From an uncultured bacterium (GTDB lineage Bacteria; Bacillota_I; Bacilli_A; RFN20; CAG-826): 64,000 bases of DNA. The stretch spans positions 271,064 through 335,063 of the forward strand of contig CASDWE010000002.1 in the NCBI GenBank assembly GCA_949284685.1, given 5' to 3'. The notes under the pieces are model-generated. The model made no database searches, was not told where the DNA came from, and saw only the letters and a list, made by a program, of their open reading frames with translations. Below, one piece after another: positions 12,432 to 41,744 of this stretch (position 1 is the first letter of the stretch; each line of letters begins with the position of its first letter). The position numbers and the translations under genes were made by a program.

Positions 12432-12689
12432 TTAATTAAACACTGTTTTTAATTCATCAATTGAATGAACAATATGATTAGTTTTTGTATTTCTAGCAAT
12501 AATAGTGCTAACTAAACCTACCCCTGTTTTACTTAGCCCCCATAAATGATAAATTTTCTTTTCTTTAAATAGTTTGGGATATAGTATTGGGATGTTGTTG
12601 TTTAGACAAAAATCATAAAGTCTATTTCTGTCTTCTTTTGTAGAAATAATTACTACATATAAATCATCTTGTTGATTAATTTGTGGCAT
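12432..12689 (-). CDS. Small unknown protein (85 aa) under a SAM-type riboswitch
   Basis: The ATG at 12689 has a strong AGGAGGG site 5 nt upstream and begins an 85-residue open frame. The protein is soluble, with alternating strand/helix segments (a YVVIIST strand, a charged helix, then IPILYP and KIYHLWGL strands), and ends in an acidic/hydrophobic helix. No signal peptide, no metal motif beyond a single Cys. I do not recognise the family. The riboswitch upstream implies expression when S-adenosylmethionine is low, so a role linked to methionine/SAM status is inferred, not shown. A longer frame beginning at 12710 lacks a ribosome site. Confidence 0.7.
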   Translation of the reverse strand: MPQINQQDDLYVVIISTKEDRNRLYDFCLNNNIPILYPKLFKEKKIYHLWGLSKTGVGLVSTIIARNTKTNHIVHSIDELKTVFN

Positions 12690-12716
12690 AATAGCCCTCC
12701 TATCTACCACAAAGAA

Positions 12717-12846
12717 TTTAAAAAGCCATCGTCGCTGATGGCTAATATAATCAATCTATTTCCATCAGCCAAGCTTTAGCACCTTGCTTTTGCAGGTTGC
12801 TGACGGGTCATTGAGCTTGTCTCTCACCGCACTCTTTATGGATATA
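12717..12846 (-). promoter_or_regulatory. SAM-I (S-box) type riboswitch with terminator
   Basis: Read on the minus strand, the region has the S-box core: AAGAG, a P2 arm with GAG-ACAAG-CTC, AATGA, then CAGCAACC, a short P3 (ACCTGC/GCAAGGT) and GGTGCTAA. The P2 loop CAAGC can pair with GCTTG after GCTAAA, giving the family pseudoknot with changed but complementary bases. P1 is TCCAT (12842-12838) with ATGGA (12765-12761). No P4 hairpin is visible, so it may be a reduced SAM-I or a SAM-I/IV-like form. Downstream, AGCCATC/GATGGCT (12724-12743) plus T5 forms a terminator. GCTGATGG pairs with CCATCAGC as antiterminator and shares bases with P1, predicting an OFF switch. Confidence 0.88.
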
Positions 12847-12898: not shown

Positions 12899-15800
12899 TT
12901 ATTCTTCATCAAACAAACTCATTTGGGTGTATGCTTCTTCTATATCTGACAAATCTTTAACGACGAATTCAAACAAACTAATAATTGATTCGTAATCTTT
13001 AACAGCACTATTTGGAATTCGTATCAATTTAATACCGTATCGCTTGCAAACTTCTTCTTTTTGTCTATCTAGAATTGAAGTCTGTTTACTACCAATATGT
13101 TCTCCGCCATCAATTTCAAAAACAACAATTGTATGATATCTGCGATTTATAAAACCGCCTGTTACTTGCACTATAATATCAAACTCTTTTTTGCCTATTA
13201 ATTTAATATCATCTGGATGAATATTTTTGATAGCTTCTTTTACAGGAACATTGCGTTCAATTTTAAATTTAGAACCTCGTCTGTTGAAGTATGGTTGAAT
13301 GGTATCAAAAAAATCTTTCTCATTTTTAGAATCATTAGAAAAGTCATATGAAATAACAACGTCACTTTTTGGTACGACTATTTCACCATTTTTGTAAACA
13401 TAATCAGAAAGAACTTTAATATCATTAGTTTCATCTCTGCTTAACTTATCAATGGCCTCTTTGTCACCAATAAAAATAAATTTTTCTTTAGCCCTAGTAA
13501 CTGCAACATTTATTAACTCGTGATTGTTTTTAATCCAATCCATCGTTTTTTTACTAGTTCTTGGTGACAAAGCCGAAGACATAATAATTATAGATTTTTC
13601 TGATCCTTGGAGTGTATGGATGGTGCCCGCTCTTACGTCGGTAATTTCCATGCGTGACAAATAGTAATTAATAAGGGCGGCTTGATTAACAAATGGCGTG
13701 ATAATTCCAACGTCCTTATAATTATTATTTTTAATAATTTTTGCCACTTGAATTGCTTCCTCTTTATAAGAGTTTCTTGCTTGTGAATTATATGTGTTTT
13801 TAACATCATAGTAAACTAAATCACCTGCATTATTATTCAATAATTTTAGTTGTTGTTCATAAAATCTTTGATTAACAAAATTGGCAATTTTTTTGCCACA
13901 GCGATAATGATATCTAAGCAAAATATTTTTAGAATTATTGTCTTTCCTTAACATGGTAGAAAGAATGGAATTGTGAACATAATCATATTCTTCTCCAATG
14001 CCATATTTTTGCATTAATTCTTCATTGATGGACTGCTCTATTACGGTTACTGGTTGCAGCTGATTTATATCACCTACCAAGAGCAACTTCGTCCCTCTTA
14101 CAATCGGTATGAGCGATGTTGCTATATTGCATTGACCAGATTCATCCATAATTGTTAAATCAAAATGAGGTTTTGCTGACCCAAGTTTATCGCATGATAA
14201 ATTGGTGCAAATAATAATTGGAAAAACCGCAAGAAAAAGTTTTAAATTACCATCATTTTTTAAATATGTATTAAAAAGTCTAACAGCGGTTTCTAGGTTA
14301 TCTGTTGATACAACATTTATTAATTCCTTATATGGATCGGTTAATAATTTTTTAAATCTTAACAAAGATGAATAATAAACATAATTTTGAAAATTTATAT
14401 CTTCCGAAGCTGAAATTGCATATTTTAAAACATCTTCATCTTTAATAGTCTGAGAATTTTTAATTTTTGTTTTATAAATTTCAATTTGATTATCTAATTT
14501 ACTATTAATTTGATTTATATTAGTTAATTTTCTTATTTTTTCTAATATGTGGAACCTTTCTTTTAAATCCACTAATTGCTCGTATTCTATTATTAAATTT
14601 TTTAGCTCATTAAAATTTGATAATGATTTATTTTTGCTTGATTCAGTTAGTCCTTCTTGTGCCCTAATATTCTTATGTTTAGAAATAAAATCAATAATTA
14701 TTCTCAATTTTAAGATGGCATCTTGCATCTCCGTGTTATTTCCAAGACGTATCATTGGGAATATTATTTTTTCTATTTCTTTTTGGTATGGTTTTTTAAT
14801 ACTCAAAGATTGATCTATTTTTTTAAAGATATCATCAACTGGGTGATTATTATTAGAACATATTAAAACTGTTTTATTGTTTGCATAAGCACTTAATACT
14901 ACATTAAATATTGTCTCGGTTTTGCCAGTTCCTGGAGGACCTTTTACATATGTAATATGATTTACCATTGAATTATAAACCACTCGCATCTGATCAATAT
15001 TAATTTTGTTTCTATTAAAAACGACAATGTTTGATTCTTTTGATGTTCCAGAACGATTTTTGTTTCTACCAAAAAATGCTTTTAAGGGGATTGTTAATTT
15101 ATTGTCGATATCCATTTGATGAATGCTTTCAAATGTTTGTTCCACGCTTCGCTGACTATCTCTTGCTAAGAAGAATATAGTGGGCCGAGTATTAATTTTT
15201 TCTCCATTATGAAATGTTTCTTCAATAAGTCGTTTATATTCTTCTTCATGCTCATCATATGTTGAGCAAAAATAATCACGGTCCATATCTAAATACATTC
15301 CAAGAGAAACTTTTTTGCCATCGATCAAAAAAGATTTATTTATAAAAGACTTGTCCGAAATTTTTAATGTTTTATTTTTAAAATTTAAAGTCAAAATTCG
15401 ATAAGCAACAACATATTGTTTGTCATTAATATCAATTGAGATTTTGTTAATAGCTAATGTTTGATATCTGTTAATAATTTCAGCTTCATATTTAGGCTTT
15501 TTAAAAACTTTATCAAGCAATTTGTTAAATTGTTCATCGTCCAATTGATATTTTTCTGAAGTTAACAAAGTGTGAGTATCGATGCCATCCACCATTACAA
15601 TTTCTTTAAGAAACGGATCGTTATCTAAGTGATAGCAGTCCGAAAGATATCCCAAAATATTATTGTCAAAATTCACCACATCTAAAAAATCTTCAATCTT
15701 TTTATCTGTGGTTACTTGTTTTAATAATTCTTTTGGGGTTTCATAATAACTTTGTTTAAGAATAGATGCAGACTTAATGCTTTCAAAGTAAATAAAAGTG

Positions 15801-15997
15801 TCTTTTTTATCTTGAATTATTTCACTGCTTTTAAATGGATTAAAAATATCACAATATATTCTTCCTTTTTCAATATCTAGACCTTTAATACCTATATAAT
15901 AATCAGTTGATTCTTTTGCTTTATTCACGTATGAAATGTCTAACCATTTATTATGGATGATAGCTTGATAAATTAAATTTTTTACAGATAATTTCAT
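12899..15997 (-). CDS. SF1 helicase with N-terminal WYL-like region and C-terminal DUF2726 nuclease
   Basis: A 1032-residue protein. Residues ~5-90 resemble a WYL-type sensor fold (WLDISYV ... YYIGIKGLDIEKGRIYC). The superfamily-1 (Upf1/DNA2-like) helicase core follows: Walker A GPPGTGKTET at ~353, a long coiled insertion ~400-560, Walker B with MDESGQ near 618, GDINQLQPV, and C-terminal RecA motifs including an Arg-rich VAVTRAKEKF. Residues ~895-1015 form a DUF2726/PD-(D/E)XK nuclease with KEFDIIV and VFEIDGGEH. It lies 13 nt after fic. The whole suggests a nucleic-acid unwinding and cutting machine, possibly anti-phage. The helicase and nuclease calls are firm; the WYL call is tentative. 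Confidence 0.88.
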   Translation of the reverse strand: MKLSVKNLIYQAIIHNKWLDISYVNKAKESTDYYIGIKGLDIEKGRIYCDIFNPFKSSEIIQDKKDTFIYFESIKSASILKQSYYETPKELLKQVTTDKKIEDFLDVVNFDNNILGYLSDCYHLDNDPFLKEIVMVDGIDTHTLLTSEKYQLDDEQFNKLLDKVFKKPKYEAEIINRYQTLAINKISIDINDKQYVVAYRILTLNFKNKTLKISDKSFINKSFLIDGKKVSLGMYLDMDRDYFCSTYDEHEEEYKRLIEETFHNGEKINTRPTIFFLARDSQRSVEQTFESIHQMDIDNKLTIPLKAFFGRNKNRSGTSKESNIVVFNRNKINIDQMRVVYNSMVNHITYVKGPPGTGKTETIFNVVLSAYANNKTVLICSNNNHPVDDIFKKIDQSLSIKKPYQKEIEKIIFPMIRLGNNTEMQDAILKLRIIIDFISKHKNIRAQEGLTESSKNKSLSNFNELKNLIIEYEQLVDLKERFHILEKIRKLTNINQINSKLDNQIEIYKTKIKNSQTIKDEDVLKYAISASEDINFQNYVYYSSLLRFKKLLTDPYKELINVVSTDNLETAVRLFNTYLKNDGNLKLFLAVFPIIICTNLSCDKLGSAKPHFDLTIMDESGQCNIATSLIPIVRGTKLLLVGDINQLQPVTVIEQSINEELMQKYGIGEEYDYVHNSILSTMLRKDNNSKNILLRYHYRCGKKIANFVNQRFYEQQLKLLNNNAGDLVYYDVKNTYNSQARNSYKEEAIQVAKIIKNNNYKDVGIITPFVNQAALINYYLSRMEITDVRAGTIHTLQGSEKSIIIMSSALSPRTSKKTMDWIKNNHELINVAVTRAKEKFIFIGDKEAIDKLSRDETNDIKVLSDYVYKNGEIVVPKSDVVISYDFSNDSKNEKDFFDTIQPYFNRRGSKFKIERNVPVKEAIKNIHPDDIKLIGKKEFDIIVQVTGGFINRRYHTIVVFEIDGGEHIGSKQTSILDRQKEEVCKRYGIKLIRIPNSAVKDYESIISLFEFVVKDLSDIEEAYTQMSLFDEE

Positions 15998-16010
15998 TTT
16001 AATTTAATCC

Positions 16011-17057
16011 TTAATTTCGATAATATCTCGTTTGAGGACCTTTGCCGAGTTTTATAATTTTTTTATTTTTTACCATCTGAGTTAAAACCATTTCAATTGT
16101 CGAAATTGAAACATCAGGTAGAATATTAGAAATTTCTTTTTTTGAAATAGGTACAATAGAATTAAGAACTGTGGCTTCTATTCTGCTGGTTTTATTTACC
16201 TTTTTAGAATTAATAGTAGCAAATCTTTTATCTAATTCTTGATAACAAGTCAATAATGTGACTAAAAAATTTCCAATAAAATAAAAATAATTATTTTTAT
16301 TTTCGTGCCAACCAATCGATGATTTTTTTAATGATTCATAATAATTAACTTTGTTTTTATTAATTTGTTCCTCAAAAGAAATATATTTCCCTGCATCAAA
16401 GCCAATTTTATATAAAAGCAGCAGTGATAACAATCTAGACATTCTTCCGTTACCATCGCTAAAAGGATGAATACATAAAAAATCCAAAATAACACACGGA
16501 ATAAGTAGAAGTTGGTTGATTTCACTATCATCTCGAGCATCCATATATGCCAAAATTAGTTGTTCCACTGCATTATCGGTTTCTTTGGCGGGCGTTGGAA
16601 CAAATCTTATATGCCTAGACCCATCATTTCTTAATTCCATAATAACATTATCTTCATGTTTAAAATTGCCTGCTGTATCTGGTCTAGCCATTTGGAGCAT
16701 AATCTTATGCAAATCTAGTAATGTTTGTTTATTAAAAGATAATTCATTGTAGTTTGTATGAACAATATTCAAAGCGTCGCGATAACCAGCAATTTCTTCT
16801 TCATCATGATTTAAAGGAGCGCTGTTTTGATTAACAATAGCATTAATTCTTTCATCTGTGGTGATAATCCCCTCAATAGCGTTACTGCCCTTAATAGATT
16901 GGACCTTTGCTATTTTTTCTAATTCAGAATAAACGTTTTTAAAACGAGATTTTCTAAATTTATCAGAGGTGCTGAAAGATGTAATGTTTATCAAAAGATT
17001 TGCTAAATCGTGTGGAATATCACAATGTTTAAGAAACGAATAATCAAATACTCTCAT
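16011..17057 (-). CDS. Fic family protein (AMP-transferase type)
   Basis: A 348-residue Fic protein that would transfer AMP (or another nucleotide moiety) from NTP to a hydroxyl side chain of a target. The Fic core motif HPFSDGNGRMSR starts at His197 with all catalytic residues. An N-terminal inhibitory helix motif SNAIEG (58-63) matches (S/T)xxxE(G/N), class II, so activity is probably self-restrained. The last ~70 residues look like a winged helix, common in Fic/DUF4172-like regulators, and could bind the tandem palindromes upstream. AAGGAAAG precedes the ATG. First gene of an operon with the helicase; target unknown. Confidence 0.92.
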   Translation of the reverse strand: MRVFDYSFLKHCDIPHDLANLLINITSFSTSDKFRKSRFKNVYSELEKIAKVQSIKGSNAIEGIITTDERINAIVNQNSAPLNHDEEEIAGYRDALNIVHTNYNELSFNKQTLLDLHKIMLQMARPDTAGNFKHEDNVIMELRNDGSRHIRFVPTPAKETDNAVEQLILAYMDARDDSEINQLLLIPCVILDFLCIHPFSDGNGRMSRLLSLLLLYKIGFDAGKYISFEEQINKNKVNYYESLKKSSIGWHENKNNYFYFIGNFLVTLLTCYQELDKRFATINSKKVNKTSRIEATVLNSIVPISKKEISNILPDVSISTIEMVLTQMVKNKKIIKLGKGPQTRYYRN

Positions 17058-17074
17058 TTGCTTTCCTTATTTGC

Positions 17075-17150
17075 TATCTGCATAAATTTTATATTTTTTT
17101 ATGCATATAATCAATAAATATCTGCATAATTTTTTAATTTTTTTATGCAT
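17075..17150 (-). promoter_or_regulatory. Tandem palindromic repeats over the fic promoter
   Basis: Two 32-bp direct repeats (17075-17106 and 17119-17150; 44-bp period) share TATCTGCATAA at one end and TTTTTTTATGCAT at the other. Each is itself an inverted repeat TGCATAA...TTATGCA. On the minus strand a promoter (TTGATT-17-TAAAAT) falls between and inside the first repeat, so a bound repressor would block transcription of fic and the helicase gene. Confidence 0.65.
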
Positions 17151-17377
17151 GTATATTTTTAATTACATTGAAAATTTAGATTATAAATACTCTTTCTAAG
17201 ATATTAAGTTATTGCACTTCTTTTTCAATTCTATCCTTAAAAATATTTTTTCTTCAATAAGCGATACAATCCAGTGAATAATGTTACCACAGCCAATGCT
17301 TATTTATAAACAGCATTATTTCCACGAACTCTTGAAACTGTACTTTATGTATAGTTAGCTTATTTTTATTTATATTT
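17151..17377. other. Intergenic stretch with possible decayed coding sequence
   Basis: No gene, RNA or terminator is clear. On the minus strand about 35 codons starting near 17340 read like protein (SRVRGNNAVYK, one TAA, then a hydrophobic stretch VVTLFTGLYRLLKKK), which may be the tail of a lost gene or chance. Confidence 0.25.
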
Positions 17378-18664
17378 TTAATCTTTTAAGCAACCGATTG
17401 GAATAACAAAAACACCATCTTCCCTTTTCTCAGAAAATCTAGTTCCAGTGATGACAAGTTTTAATGATGGTAAAGGCATCTTGTTTTTTGGATATTTTTG
17501 ATTAAATTCATTAATTAATTTTTCTATTTCACAAAGATGTTTTGCTCCTTCATCGATTTGATTATTCCCCAGTTTAATTTCAATTAATGCATATCTTCCA
17601 TCATCTAGATGCAAAACACAATCTGCTTCTACACCATATCTATCTCTATAATAAGAAAGTTCACCACCATTTTTGGAAGAATAAGCTGTTAAATCTCTTA
17701 TACATAATGATTCAAACAAAAAGCCTAATGTATTGAAATCATTTTTTAGAGATTCAGGAGAAGCTCCCAATGCAACAGCTGCAATGGAAGGATCAATTAA
17801 ATTTCTTTTTGGAGTGCTTCTTACATTAGTCTTACTTCTTAATAAAGGAGACCATGCATTAACATCTTTAATAATACATAAACGCTCAAGTGCATTAATA
17901 TATTCATAAAATGTAGATTCTGACATACCACAACTTAAATACACATCTTGATAAATAGTTTTTGTATTAGCAAGAGTACATATATTTCTAGAATATGATT
18001 TTAAAATCGCACTAACCCATTTAGGATTTCTTTTAATTTTATCTAAAGCTGACATGTCTTTCTTACATGTTTGGTTAAATAAATCCTTGGCTATATATAA
18101 TTTTTCTTTATCGCCTTTTTGAACTATGGTTTTTGGCCAGCCACCTTTGCAAATAGAAAAAACAATATCATCAATATTCATTTTTGATTCACAAGGAATA
18201 AAAGAATCCGGATTATTAAATAAATCAATTAAACTAATTTGTCCGGTTGAGTCACCCATTTCAAATAGTGACATAGGTATCATCTCTAATTCAGAAATTC
18301 TTTGAGTTCCAGTGTGTGGTGTTTGAACATTGTTTGAAGAAGAACCTGTTAAGATAAAACTGCCAACTTCTTCTGGATGATCATCACAATATTTTCTAAT
18401 TGTACCCCAAATCTTTGGAGCATCTTGCCATTCGTCAAAAAGAATTGGCTTTTCACCCTCAAGCAATTTTGTTGGATAATTATTTACTAATTGAAGATAA
18501 TAATCACGTTTTTCCTCATCTTGAAACTCAATTATTGTTTTTGCTTGTTCTGACGCAGTTCTTGTTTTGCCACAACCTTTTGGTCCACTAATTAAAACAG
18601 CACCAAATACGTTCATCCTAAATTTTAATATTTCATCAAATACTCTATTTTTATAGTTAGACAT
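17378..18664 (-). CDS. AAA ATPase with C-terminal DUF4143 domain
   Basis: A 428-residue protein of the common ATP-binding/DUF4143 group. Walker A GPKGCGKTRTA lies near residue 27 and Walker B with ILFDEWQDAP near 80. A winged-helix middle follows, then the C-terminal nuclease-like fold (EADCVLHL ... LIEIKLG). Such genes are frequent, mobile and of unsettled function; toxin-antitoxin or nucleic-acid roles have been suggested. The ATG at 18664 is preferred over one 45 nt upstream, which lies over the promoter. AGGGAT serves as a weak ribosome site. It is separated from fic by about 320 nt. Confidence 0.88.
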   Translation of the reverse strand: MSNYKNRVFDEILKFRMNVFGAVLISGPKGCGKTRTASEQAKTIIEFQDEEKRDYYLQLVNNYPTKLLEGEKPILFDEWQDAPKIWGTIRKYCDDHPEEVGSFILTGSSSNNVQTPHTGTQRISELEMIPMSLFEMGDSTGQISLIDLFNNPDSFIPCESKMNIDDIVFSICKGGWPKTIVQKGDKEKLYIAKDLFNQTCKKDMSALDKIKRNPKWVSAILKSYSRNICTLANTKTIYQDVYLSCGMSESTFYEYINALERLCIIKDVNAWSPLLRSKTNVRSTPKRNLIDPSIAAVALGASPESLKNDFNTLGFLFESLCIRDLTAYSSKNGGELSYYRDRYGVEADCVLHLDDGRYALIEIKLGNNQIDEGAKHLCEIEKLINEFNQKYPKNKMPLPSLKLVITGTRFSEKREDGVFVIPIGCLKD

Positions 18665-18689
18665 AATATTAATCCCTACTTTCAATATT

Positions 18690-18718
18690 ATTGTAATAAT
18701 AGAATACACTCTTGTAAA
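18690..18718 (-). promoter_or_regulatory. Sigma-A type promoter of the DUF4143 ATPase gene
   Basis: On the minus strand TTTACA (18718-18713) and TACAAT (18695-18690) are exactly 17 nt apart, about 25 nt before the start codon. Confidence 0.65.
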
Positions 18719-18731
18719 GTTAGAAATGGAA

Positions 18732-18790
18732 TGATTTGTGGTATTTTACTGGAGTGATTTGTGGTATTTTACTGGCGTGATTTGTGATTA
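18732..18790. repeat. Tandem 23-bp repeats
   Basis: A 23-bp unit beginning TGATTTGTGGTATTTTACTG occurs at 18732-18754 and 18755-18777, with a third partial copy (TGATTTGTGATTA) from 18778. The two full copies differ at one base. They end 14 nt upstream of the -35 box, so could be regulator sites, or the relic of a transposon end carrying multiple repeats as in the IS21 family. Confidence 0.8.
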
Positions 18791-18958
18791 TTAATTTTTG
18801 TGTTTATTAATCAAACAAGCATCATGTACCTCATGTTCACATCATGCTTACAAGGTAGTTTTGGTTTAAAGTGTACTTTAAAGTATACTTTGCCGGTAGA
18901 CTTTAAAAAAATGGCCTGGATAGTACCGAGGTCATCTTTTTCGTCATATTTCTGTGCA

Positions 18959-19900
18959 TTAAGCTATTTTTTCATATTCAACTTTAAAACTAGTTTTAGG
19001 ATACACCATTTTGTATACAGGGATTCCTTTTGATGAAGCAATATCAATTAATCTTTTTTGATCTTCCTCTGATATTCGTAAACCTAAATAAATTGCTGTT
19101 GGTTTAGGTGCCTTAACAATAAAATATGGTTTAGGTTGCTTCCCTAGTGGAATAGTCAATCTCCACTCCTTTTCATATTGCCAATCAGTCCCCTTTATCA
19201 TTGAAGCATAAGTTGAAATTAAGTTATTAAAGGTTTTAATATCATTTCGAAAATACAAAGAGAAATCTGGTATATCATCTTGATAAATAACCGGCTGAAG
19301 CGAACACCATAACGGTTGCCATCTAATTTCATCAAAATTATATTCGATACAGAAACCTCTAAATTTATCTGCATAATGTGCCCACATAGCGCTGGATTCA
19401 TTATTTTCAGATAGCGCACAAATATATATATTATTAGAATTGCTTTCAAGAATTTTTTGGTTTCCAAAATGACATATCGAAGAAATTATTTCTTCTGTAA
19501 ATTTTTTCAAGGTTCCCTTTGGCAAATTTGATTTTGAAGCAGTTTCACTCTTTGATTCTAATAGTTCGAAAAATTCATCATCTGAACATGTTTTAAGTTC
19601 CTCTTTCTCGTTAGTGTTGAATAATTCGCTATTTTTTAACATTTTTCTTAATTCATTAATGCAAATAGTAGGATTAACAACCTTGCTGGAACATTCAAAT
19701 GGATCATTTAATTTTGAAACTTCAGTCAAACTTAGTTCATCATTCTCAAAATTTTCAACAGAATATTTAGTAATTCCGCGATATTTAAACAATCTTTTAG
19801 GAGTGTGCTCTGATTTAATTTTTTTTGCGCCATCAATATCAATGTCATTGTTATTTAAAGGAAATAATAATTTTACATACTCTTCTATCCACTTTTCCAT
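18959..19900 (-). CDS. DUF2971 domain protein
   Basis: A 313-residue soluble protein. The family hallmarks are present: LFKYRGI near residue 37, LNDPFEC near 62-68, ICALSENNES then MWAHYADKFRGFCIEY in the middle, and EKEWRLTIP near 240. DUF2971 proteins are widespread in accessory islands and often neighbour toxin or defence genes, but no reaction has been established that I can name with confidence. A strong AAGGAGC site precedes the ATG. It has its own spacing from both neighbours and is probably transcribed alone. Confidence 0.88.
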   Translation of the reverse strand: MEKWIEEYVKLLFPLNNNDIDIDGAKKIKSEHTPKRLFKYRGITKYSVENFENDELSLTEVSKLNDPFECSSKVVNPTICINELRKMLKNSELFNTNEKEELKTCSDDEFFELLESKSETASKSNLPKGTLKKFTEEIISSICHFGNQKILESNSNNIYICALSENNESSAMWAHYADKFRGFCIEYNFDEIRWQPLWCSLQPVIYQDDIPDFSLYFRNDIKTFNNLISTYASMIKGTDWQYEKEWRLTIPLGKQPKPYFIVKAPKPTAIYLGLRISEEDQKRLIDIASSKGIPVYKMVYPKTSFKVEYEKIA

Positions 19901-41167: not shown

Positions 41168-41628
41168 TTTTTAACCTCCCTTTTGTTTTTAAAATAGTTT
41201 TTGATAATCATACTGCATTCGTTTGCTAAAACGTTGGACTTGACATTTACCTTATGATTTAATCCGCTGACATTTGACAAATTTAATATGGTTCCAAACG
41301 AACCGCCCTTTTCATCAGAAACACCATATATAACTTCTTCTATCCTAGAAGCGATTATTGCACCGGCACACATTGGGCATGGCTCGATAGTAACATATAT
41401 TTTACAGCCATTTAATCTCCATGATTTAATCTTTTTGCATGCTTTTTTTATTGCAATAATTTCAGCGTGTGCTGTCGGATCGTTTTTGCTTTCTTTTAAA
41501 TTGTATCCTCTTGATAAAACCATACCATCCTTAACAATAACAGCACCTACTGGCACTTCATCTTTTAAAAAAGCTTTTTTTGCTTCGTTAAGAGCAAGTT
41601 TCATGAAATAAGAATCATCTTTTAACAT
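41140..41628 (-). CDS. tadA: tRNA-specific adenosine deaminase
   Basis: A 162-residue zinc enzyme that converts the wobble adenosine of tRNA-Arg(ACG) to inosine. Zinc and catalytic residues: His54 and Glu56 (TAHAE), Cys84 and Cys87 (PCPMC). The ATG at 41628 gives the normal N-terminus. An in-frame ATG at 41649 is rejected because it lies inside the 3' arm of the SRP RNA. No clear ribosome site. tadA beside the SRP RNA gene is an arrangement conserved in Bacillus. Confidence 0.92.
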   Translation of the reverse strand: MLKDDSYFMKLALNEAKKAFLKDEVPVGAVIVKDGMVLSRGYNLKESKNDPTAHAEIIAIKKACKKIKSWRLNGCKIYVTIEPCPMCAGAIIASRIEEVIYGVSDEKGGSFGTILNLSNVSGLNHKVNVKSNVLANECSMIIKNYFKNKREVKKCKKLTQVS

Positions 41629-41634
41629 AATACC

Positions 41635-41715
41635 AAAACCATCGCACATAGCGAATTGTCTTAAGGCTGCTACATTCCTGTCCTGACCTGGTTCGAGAAT
41701 CGCTATCGCGATGGC
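41635..41715 (-). ncRNA. ffs: Small SRP RNA (4.5S type)
   Basis: On the minus strand the helix-8 core GGTCAGGACAGGAATGTAGC is followed by AGCC, with a GGAA tetraloop closed by A-U. Outer arms CCATCGC and TAGCGA (41714-41700) pair with TCGCTA and GCGATGG (41654-41639). A TATAAT at 41727-41722 puts the 5' end near 41715, and GGTTTTGG marks the 3' end. About 81 nt, without an Alu domain. It binds Ffh for cotranslational targeting of membrane proteins. Confidence 0.93.
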
Positions 41716-41744
41716 AAGTGTATTATATCATAATTTCACGATAA

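Follow-up and report, generated by a model that had tools for sequence, protein, structure and literature searches.

A P4-less SAM-I riboswitch, probably a transcription-attenuating OFF switch, precedes a phage-shared small protein gene in uncultured Bacilli

We found a SAM-I riboswitch variant that lacks the P4 helix in front of a gene for an 85-residue protein (P0001) in an uncultured bacterium (GTDB lineage Bacillota_I; Bacilli_A; RFN20; CAG-826). The element lies in a stretch of 64,000 nucleotides of contig CASDWE010000002.1, hereafter called the window. It is a real P4-less SAM-I variant, and it quite probably works as a transcription-attenuating OFF switch controlling an accessory small protein that is shared with phages. 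We infer SAM as the ligand, the OFF direction and the accessory role of P0001 from sequence comparison. Far from being an isolated oddity, the P4-less form is a recurrent subtype found widely among uncultured Bacilli, and the P0001 gene is one of many genes in its regulon. Among the open-access papers searched, none dealt with a SAM-I subtype lacking P4 or with SAM switches of phages.

Results

A scan of the whole window with Rfam models placed a SAM riboswitch (RF00162) on the minus strand at 12759–12844, with 48.0 bits against a gathering threshold of 44.4 (E = 6.7e-8, computed on the whole window). RF00162 is the best-scoring SAM-clan model at this site, which bears out the SAM-I-type riboswitch proposed in a first-pass annotation, together with the Rfam SAM-clan scan that it had suggested as a check. 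All motifs of the switch were found (CCATAAAGAG, GAGAGACAAGCTC, AATGACC, CAGCAACC, GGTGCTAA and GCTTG). Within the Rfam envelope, the aptamer core, consisting of P1, P2, P3 and a pseudoknot, occupies 12762–12841. The 5' strand of P1 (CCAU, 12838–12841) pairs with AUGG at 12762–12765, and the P2 loop (CAAG, 12816–12819) forms the pseudoknot with CUUG at 12770–12773 in J3/1. P2 contains the tandem G•A pairs of a kink-turn (G17 A18/G33 A34). We take the pseudoknot of the Thermoanaerobacter tengcongensis RNA to comprise bases 25–28 and 65–68. The CAAG/CUUG pair sits at the known position of the SAM-I pseudoknot, which is formed by the P2 loop with J3/4 and in which bases 27, 28, 65 and 66 are conserved (PMC3764141). 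In the window RNA, GGUGCUAA is followed by AGCUUG, which pairs with the P2 loop, then by 4 nt and then by P1. Canonical SAM-I has P4 next to this pseudoknot strand, whereas the 4 nt in the window aptamer hold no P4 helix. The suspicion that the aptamer is a reduced one is thus correct, and it is a three-helix aptamer.

The comparative evidence comes from R1, a covariance model built from 16 P4-less aptamers. R1 scores the window site at 95.1 bits (E = 1.6e-25), the window sequence itself being one of the 16 model members, and has no other match in the window. We aligned 102 R1 matches, fitted to the nested structure with the pseudoknot left out of the model. In this alignment, 97.0% of the cells are paired and 18 of 25 pairs are changed on both sides. 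The covariation score is 0.335 versus 0.130 for shuffled and at most 0.092 for slid alignments, and none of the shuffles attains any of the five measures. Over the 101 distinct rows, the paired cells amount to 99.8% in P1, 99.7–99.8% in P2 and 92.4% in P3, with compensatory changes present. The pseudoknot, which is outside the R1 model, is paired in 99% of the cells, and three of its four pairs are compensated (CAAG/CUUG, CUAG/CUAG, CUGG/CCAG, CAGC/GCUG, CUGC/GCAG and CAGG/CCUG). The compensated CAAGC/GCTTG pseudoknot noticed earlier in the single sequence is therefore supported by its relatives. P1 is almost fixed as CCAU/AUGG in the P4-less group, and the distance from the pseudoknot strand to P1 is 3–5 nt throughout. 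An origin of the window switch by chance or artefact was rejected on the RF00162 score, the covariation and the R1 score.

We compared the alignment with the list of SAM-pocket nucleotides in PMC3764141. A6, U7, G11, C44, A45, A46, C47, G56, U57, G58, A87 and U88 are invariant in all 102 aptamers. The kink-turn bases A18 (101 of 102), G33 (99), A34 (102) and G17 (69) recur as well. The G43 position (alignment column 42) is A in 12 aptamers and C in two. About 12% of the P4-less aptamers read GACAACC, without the conserved G43–C59 pair, which is flipped to C–G in L168 and L194.

The expression platform follows the aptamer. An intrinsic terminator stem-loop at 12743–12724 (minus strand), followed by UUUU, was found by a terminator scan (AGCCATC-AGCGAC-GATGGCT-TTTT; one found versus 0.2 expected). 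The antiterminator strand GCTGATGG (GCUGAUGG in the RNA; 12762–12769) is shared with the 3' strand of P1 and is a perfect eight-base-pair complement of CCATCAGC (CCAUCAGC; 12734–12741), which overlaps the 5' arm of the terminator. The exact terminator/antiterminator pair claimed from the first reading, and with it transcription attenuation, thus holds. Downstream, the Shine–Dalgarno region AUAGGAGGGCU (12693–12703), containing AGGAGG, precedes the ATG at 12689 of the P0001 reading frame, which ends with a stop codon at 12432 (12432–12689, minus strand). The minimum-free-energy fold of the isolated leader contains the terminator hairpin, with the aptamer mispaired (z = −1.78). Such mispairing is common for pseudoknotted, ligand-stabilised aptamers, and because of it we relied on the comparative evidence. 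In a loose scan, 120 of 124 P4-less sites have a terminator 3' of them; the P1 3' strand (GAUGGG) recurs in the 3' arm of this terminator, whose 5' arm can often pair with P1. A strict scan of all sites gave 80 of 160, compared with 0.35 in shuffles. The P4-less switch is an OFF switch by design, a direction that we infer from this arrangement.

We surveyed the order of the window genome for SAM-I sites. About 96 sites in 273 genomes fall into two groups. The P4-bearing sites precede metK in 19 of 19 cases. Among the 78 P4-less sites, seven lie before metK, 67 before other genes and four have no readable gene; metK is thus the first gene at seven of the 74 sites with a readable one, and some further sites head metK operons. 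The association of P4 with a metK target has a Fisher p of 2e-14, a value that ignores the relatedness of the genomes. Most of the non-metK targets are small proteins that match no Pfam family. Across the whole class, R1 detects the subtype in 130 genomes out of 395 (E ≤1e-4), and its higher scores (above about 55 bits) are scattered across many families, while at lower scores R1 also picks up ordinary SAM-I. Among the matches listed in a phylum-wide draw, all belong to the same class.

The window genome has one P4-bearing switch, before metK, and one P4-less switch, the window site. As a point against the proposed mechanism, this genome already runs metK through the P4-bearing SAM-I, so that a further class of SAM sensor calls for an explanation. 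The metK riboswitch of the window genome (L002, G000:C2:23299–23398) scores 43 bits, below the cut-off; it keeps P4 and seems to be without the P2b/kink-turn part. Several related genomes (G004, G030, G147, G151, G163 and G164) have forms like it before metK. Two identical P4-less aptamers form tandem cassettes in L077 (G109:C69), each with its own small gene, and G109 has five RF00162 sites in total. A P4-less switch of 82.5 bits is also present in Mycoplasmopsis cynos (L215, NZ_LR214986.1) before a DUF4116-type ORF, and the first genes in three small genomes (G630, G645 and G653) resemble it.

The ligand is likely SAM, judging from sequence, because the pocket is invariant and the targets include metK and metK operons. 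The subtype is found directly before metK and before operons of the type priA-fmt-..-metK and gltX-..-metK. PriA and GltX were initially candidates for odd targets, and were dismissed as such because both head metK operons. The subtype shares with SAM-I (S box, RF00162) the helices P1, P2 with its kink-turn and P3, the L2–J3/4 pseudoknot, the SAM-pocket nucleotides and an OFF design by terminator and antiterminator. However, RF00162 has P4 and a four-way junction where the P4-less form has a three-way junction, and its pseudoknot reads CUGG/CCUG where the window aptamer has CAAG/CUUG. The nearly fixed P1 and the mostly non-methionine targets also set the subtype apart. In known SAM-I, P4 stacks on P1, and the loss of P4 could weaken binding. 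The core and pocket of the clan are common to the P4-less subtype, SAM-IV and the SAM-I/IV variant (RF01725); according to PMC2864571, the last has no P2 internal loop, an element that the P4-less subtype keeps. For lack of P4, the window element is assigned to the SAM clan as a P4-less variant rather than to canonical SAM-I.

A changed ligand, either a SAM derivative or another compound, was considered as well. Spermidine-sensing SAM-I variants, with an altered J1/2 and P3 internal loop and polyamine targets, are precedents (PMC10853860); they resemble the P4-less subtype in having a variant SAM-I scaffold and OFF termination, and most P4-less targets are non-SAM genes. However, the spermidine-type changes in J1/2 and the P3 internal loop are absent from the 102 P4-less aptamers, in which these positions are invariant, and the subtype also has metK operons as targets. 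We regard a changed ligand as improbable.

P0001 has no family match in Pfam, NCBIfam, PADLOC or PDB sequences, nor in PHROGs (best E = 0.21), as had been expected of a protein of no recognised family. Relatives turned up in 13 bacterial genomes, spread over several families, by protein and profile searches; the four viral contigs described below have further ones. The suggestion to look for relatives behind S-boxes was borne out: although these relatives were found by protein sequence alone, the switch lies upstream in 13 of 13 bacterial genomes. Three of these switches are below the Rfam cut-off (G172, 44.0 bits; G040, 35.7 bits, where its contig begins; and G546, 37.5 bits), but all three are strong R1 matches. 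A 69-residue ORF lies between the switch and the P0001 relative in G041 and G226. These genomes belong to different genera and have identical aptamers and identical 69-residue ORFs, which is a sign of recent transfer. Weak protein matches (L024–L029) were rejected as partial matches to unrelated ORFs (for example, an ABC-type permease) without a riboswitch.

The relative in G546, which is broken by stop codons while its switch persists, would agree with a plain SAM-I riboswitch upstream of an ORF that is spurious or dead. However, the ORF, Shine–Dalgarno sequence and motifs are kept among the 13 bacterial and the viral relatives down to 24–29% identity, and we consider a spurious ORF extremely improbable. 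P0001 looks like a cytosolic small α/β domain. Its AlphaFold model from two sequences was poor (pLDDT 53.8), and addition of the viral relatives gave pLDDT 66.4 with a predicted β-α-β-β-α-β-α layout. A Foldseek search of this model against the PDB gave no credible match (best E = 1.4). The proposal that P0001 is a methionine-linked regulator or transporter partner was not supported: no methionine gene adjoins P0001 relatives in any family member read, and the gene is an accessory one that is also found on viral contigs.

Profile searches against a background of 2602 ORFs connect P0001 with other targets of the subtype. After its own relatives, the P0001 profile next finds L051, and with a profile of L051-type domains the next matches are L150, L015, L075, L120, L175 and L022, all of which are first genes behind P4-less switches. 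The L051-type domains are the C-termini of 280-residue proteins controlled by a P4-less switch, and a further small domain (L124) is fused to an N-formylglutamate-amidohydrolase-like enzyme. An hhalign comparison of P0001 with L051 gave 39%, compared with at most 6% for controls. These comparisons lend moderate support to a loosely knit superfamily of small domains induced at low SAM, to which P0001 would belong. A shared ancestry of all the small target proteins has only partial support.

There are also targets of other kinds. Genes similar to PF05013 (N-formylglutamate-amidohydrolase-like) lie behind P4-less switches in L036, L045, L069, L076, L091, L093, L113, L114, L115, L124, L177, L186 and L188, some with an extra N-terminal small domain, and a role in formyl-methionine salvage is conceivable for them. 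L044 and L048 encode FtsH-like AAA and M41 proteins without obvious membrane segments. MoxR-like AAA ATPase genes are found in L062, L074, L082, L098, L131, L133, L136 and L183.

These targets bear on a nutritional reading, according to which methionine-auxotrophic, small-genome Bacilli induce salvage and protein-turnover factors, P0001 among them, when methionine, and with it SAM, is low. The FtsH-like AAA–M41 proteins, the N-formylglutamate-amidohydrolase-like enzymes, QueT and MFS transporters among the targets speak for it, as does the position of the subtype before metK operons including fmt. On the other hand, the P0001 family has a sporadic distribution (10 genomes among 279 from the order), its contexts are diverse and it is present on viral contigs, none of which is typical of core nutrition. 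We consider this nutritional reading less likely than not.

P4-less aptamers also occur in viruses. We found them in Ruminococcus phage NatCom_28274, in one unannotated gut phage record and, with a relaxed pattern, in 26 IMG/VR contigs; R1 confirms all viral matches. A strict pattern had found none in viral contigs, and this apparent absence was discarded as a pattern artefact. The viral identity of the IMG/VR contigs is that collection's label together with our reading of neighbouring ORFs, and their genes were called by eye. P0001 relatives lie on four of the viral contigs (L222 and L243–L245), all behind the same riboswitch class. The relative in L222 is 41% identical to P0001 by BLAST and follows a 95.9-bit switch, and the cassette adjoins methyltransferase-like ORFs. 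In L243–L245, the relative is 65% identical to that of L222 and follows an 80.3-bit switch, the cassette being flanked by tail-type genes and serine recombinases. The viral P0001 cassettes look like moron cargo. As in phage morons and prophage cargo, one small gene appears to stand under a regulatory leader of its own, placed within tail modules or beside integrases; unlike these, the P0001 cassette would be controlled by a metabolite riboswitch. About 13 viral contigs carry, behind the same switch, a second family of small phage proteins (90–106 residues).

No recognisable prophage surrounds the window copy of the cassette. The cassette occupies the position 3' of a superfamily-1 helicase gene. 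Its surroundings are a row made up of helicase, Fic, AAA/DUF4143 and DUF2971 genes (12899–19900) that shows similarity to PADLOC candidate families and varies between sister genomes. The slot 3' of the same helicase is taken up by Fic genes in sister genome G004 and by a TIR-like ORF in G002, and is thus a variable one. Elsewhere in the window, a bacterial small SRP RNA is encoded at 41626–41722 on the minus strand (RF00169, 69.6 bits).

This setting raises the possibility of defence or counter-defence, in which loss of SAM during phage attack, for example through phage SAM-degrading enzymes or heavy methylation, would switch on a protective or abortive small protein; on the phage side, the same protein would serve superinfection exclusion or anti-restriction. 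The helicase slot and the PADLOC-like neighbours are in line with it, and so are the viral cassettes by serine recombinases (L244), in a tail module (L216) and beside C5-methyltransferase-like ORFs (L222 and L221). However, enrichment of defence genes around the subtype was not found: PADLOC matches are only scattered among the 87 ORFs near P4-less sites (one match among 43 control ORFs around metK), and P0001 matches no PADLOC model. We regard a defence role as rather unlikely.

Discussion

We think it most likely that P0001 is an accessory factor that came from phages and is induced at low SAM, the induction having good support. With SAM in ample supply, the ligand would bind the P1/P3 pocket, and P1 (CCAU/AUGG) would hold the 3' strand, so that the terminator forms and the gene stays silent. 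When SAM is low, GCUGAUGG would pair with CCAUCAGC, the terminator would be broken and the 85-residue protein would be made. The P0001 family would be an accessory, horizontally moving one, carried by phages and prophages as a self-contained cassette of aptamer, terminator and gene. More speculatively, and in our view unlikely, mobile phage-borne P4-less switches may treat SAM depletion as an alarm that arms small proteins for phage–phage or host–phage conflict over DNA methylation and restriction; these proteins would form a large accessory pool that includes P0001 together with its more remote relatives.

Methionine genes are the textbook targets of SAM riboswitches. The subtype described here is recurrent and covarying, has mostly orphan small-protein targets and is present in phage genomes. 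It thus runs counter to the rule by which the pathway is read off the target gene, and provides a natural test of the purpose of P4. Its targets constitute a defined gene set with a shared trigger, presumably low SAM, ahead of any knowledge of function. If loss of SAM is a signal of infection or competition, the P4-less switches would give a directly testable route to it.
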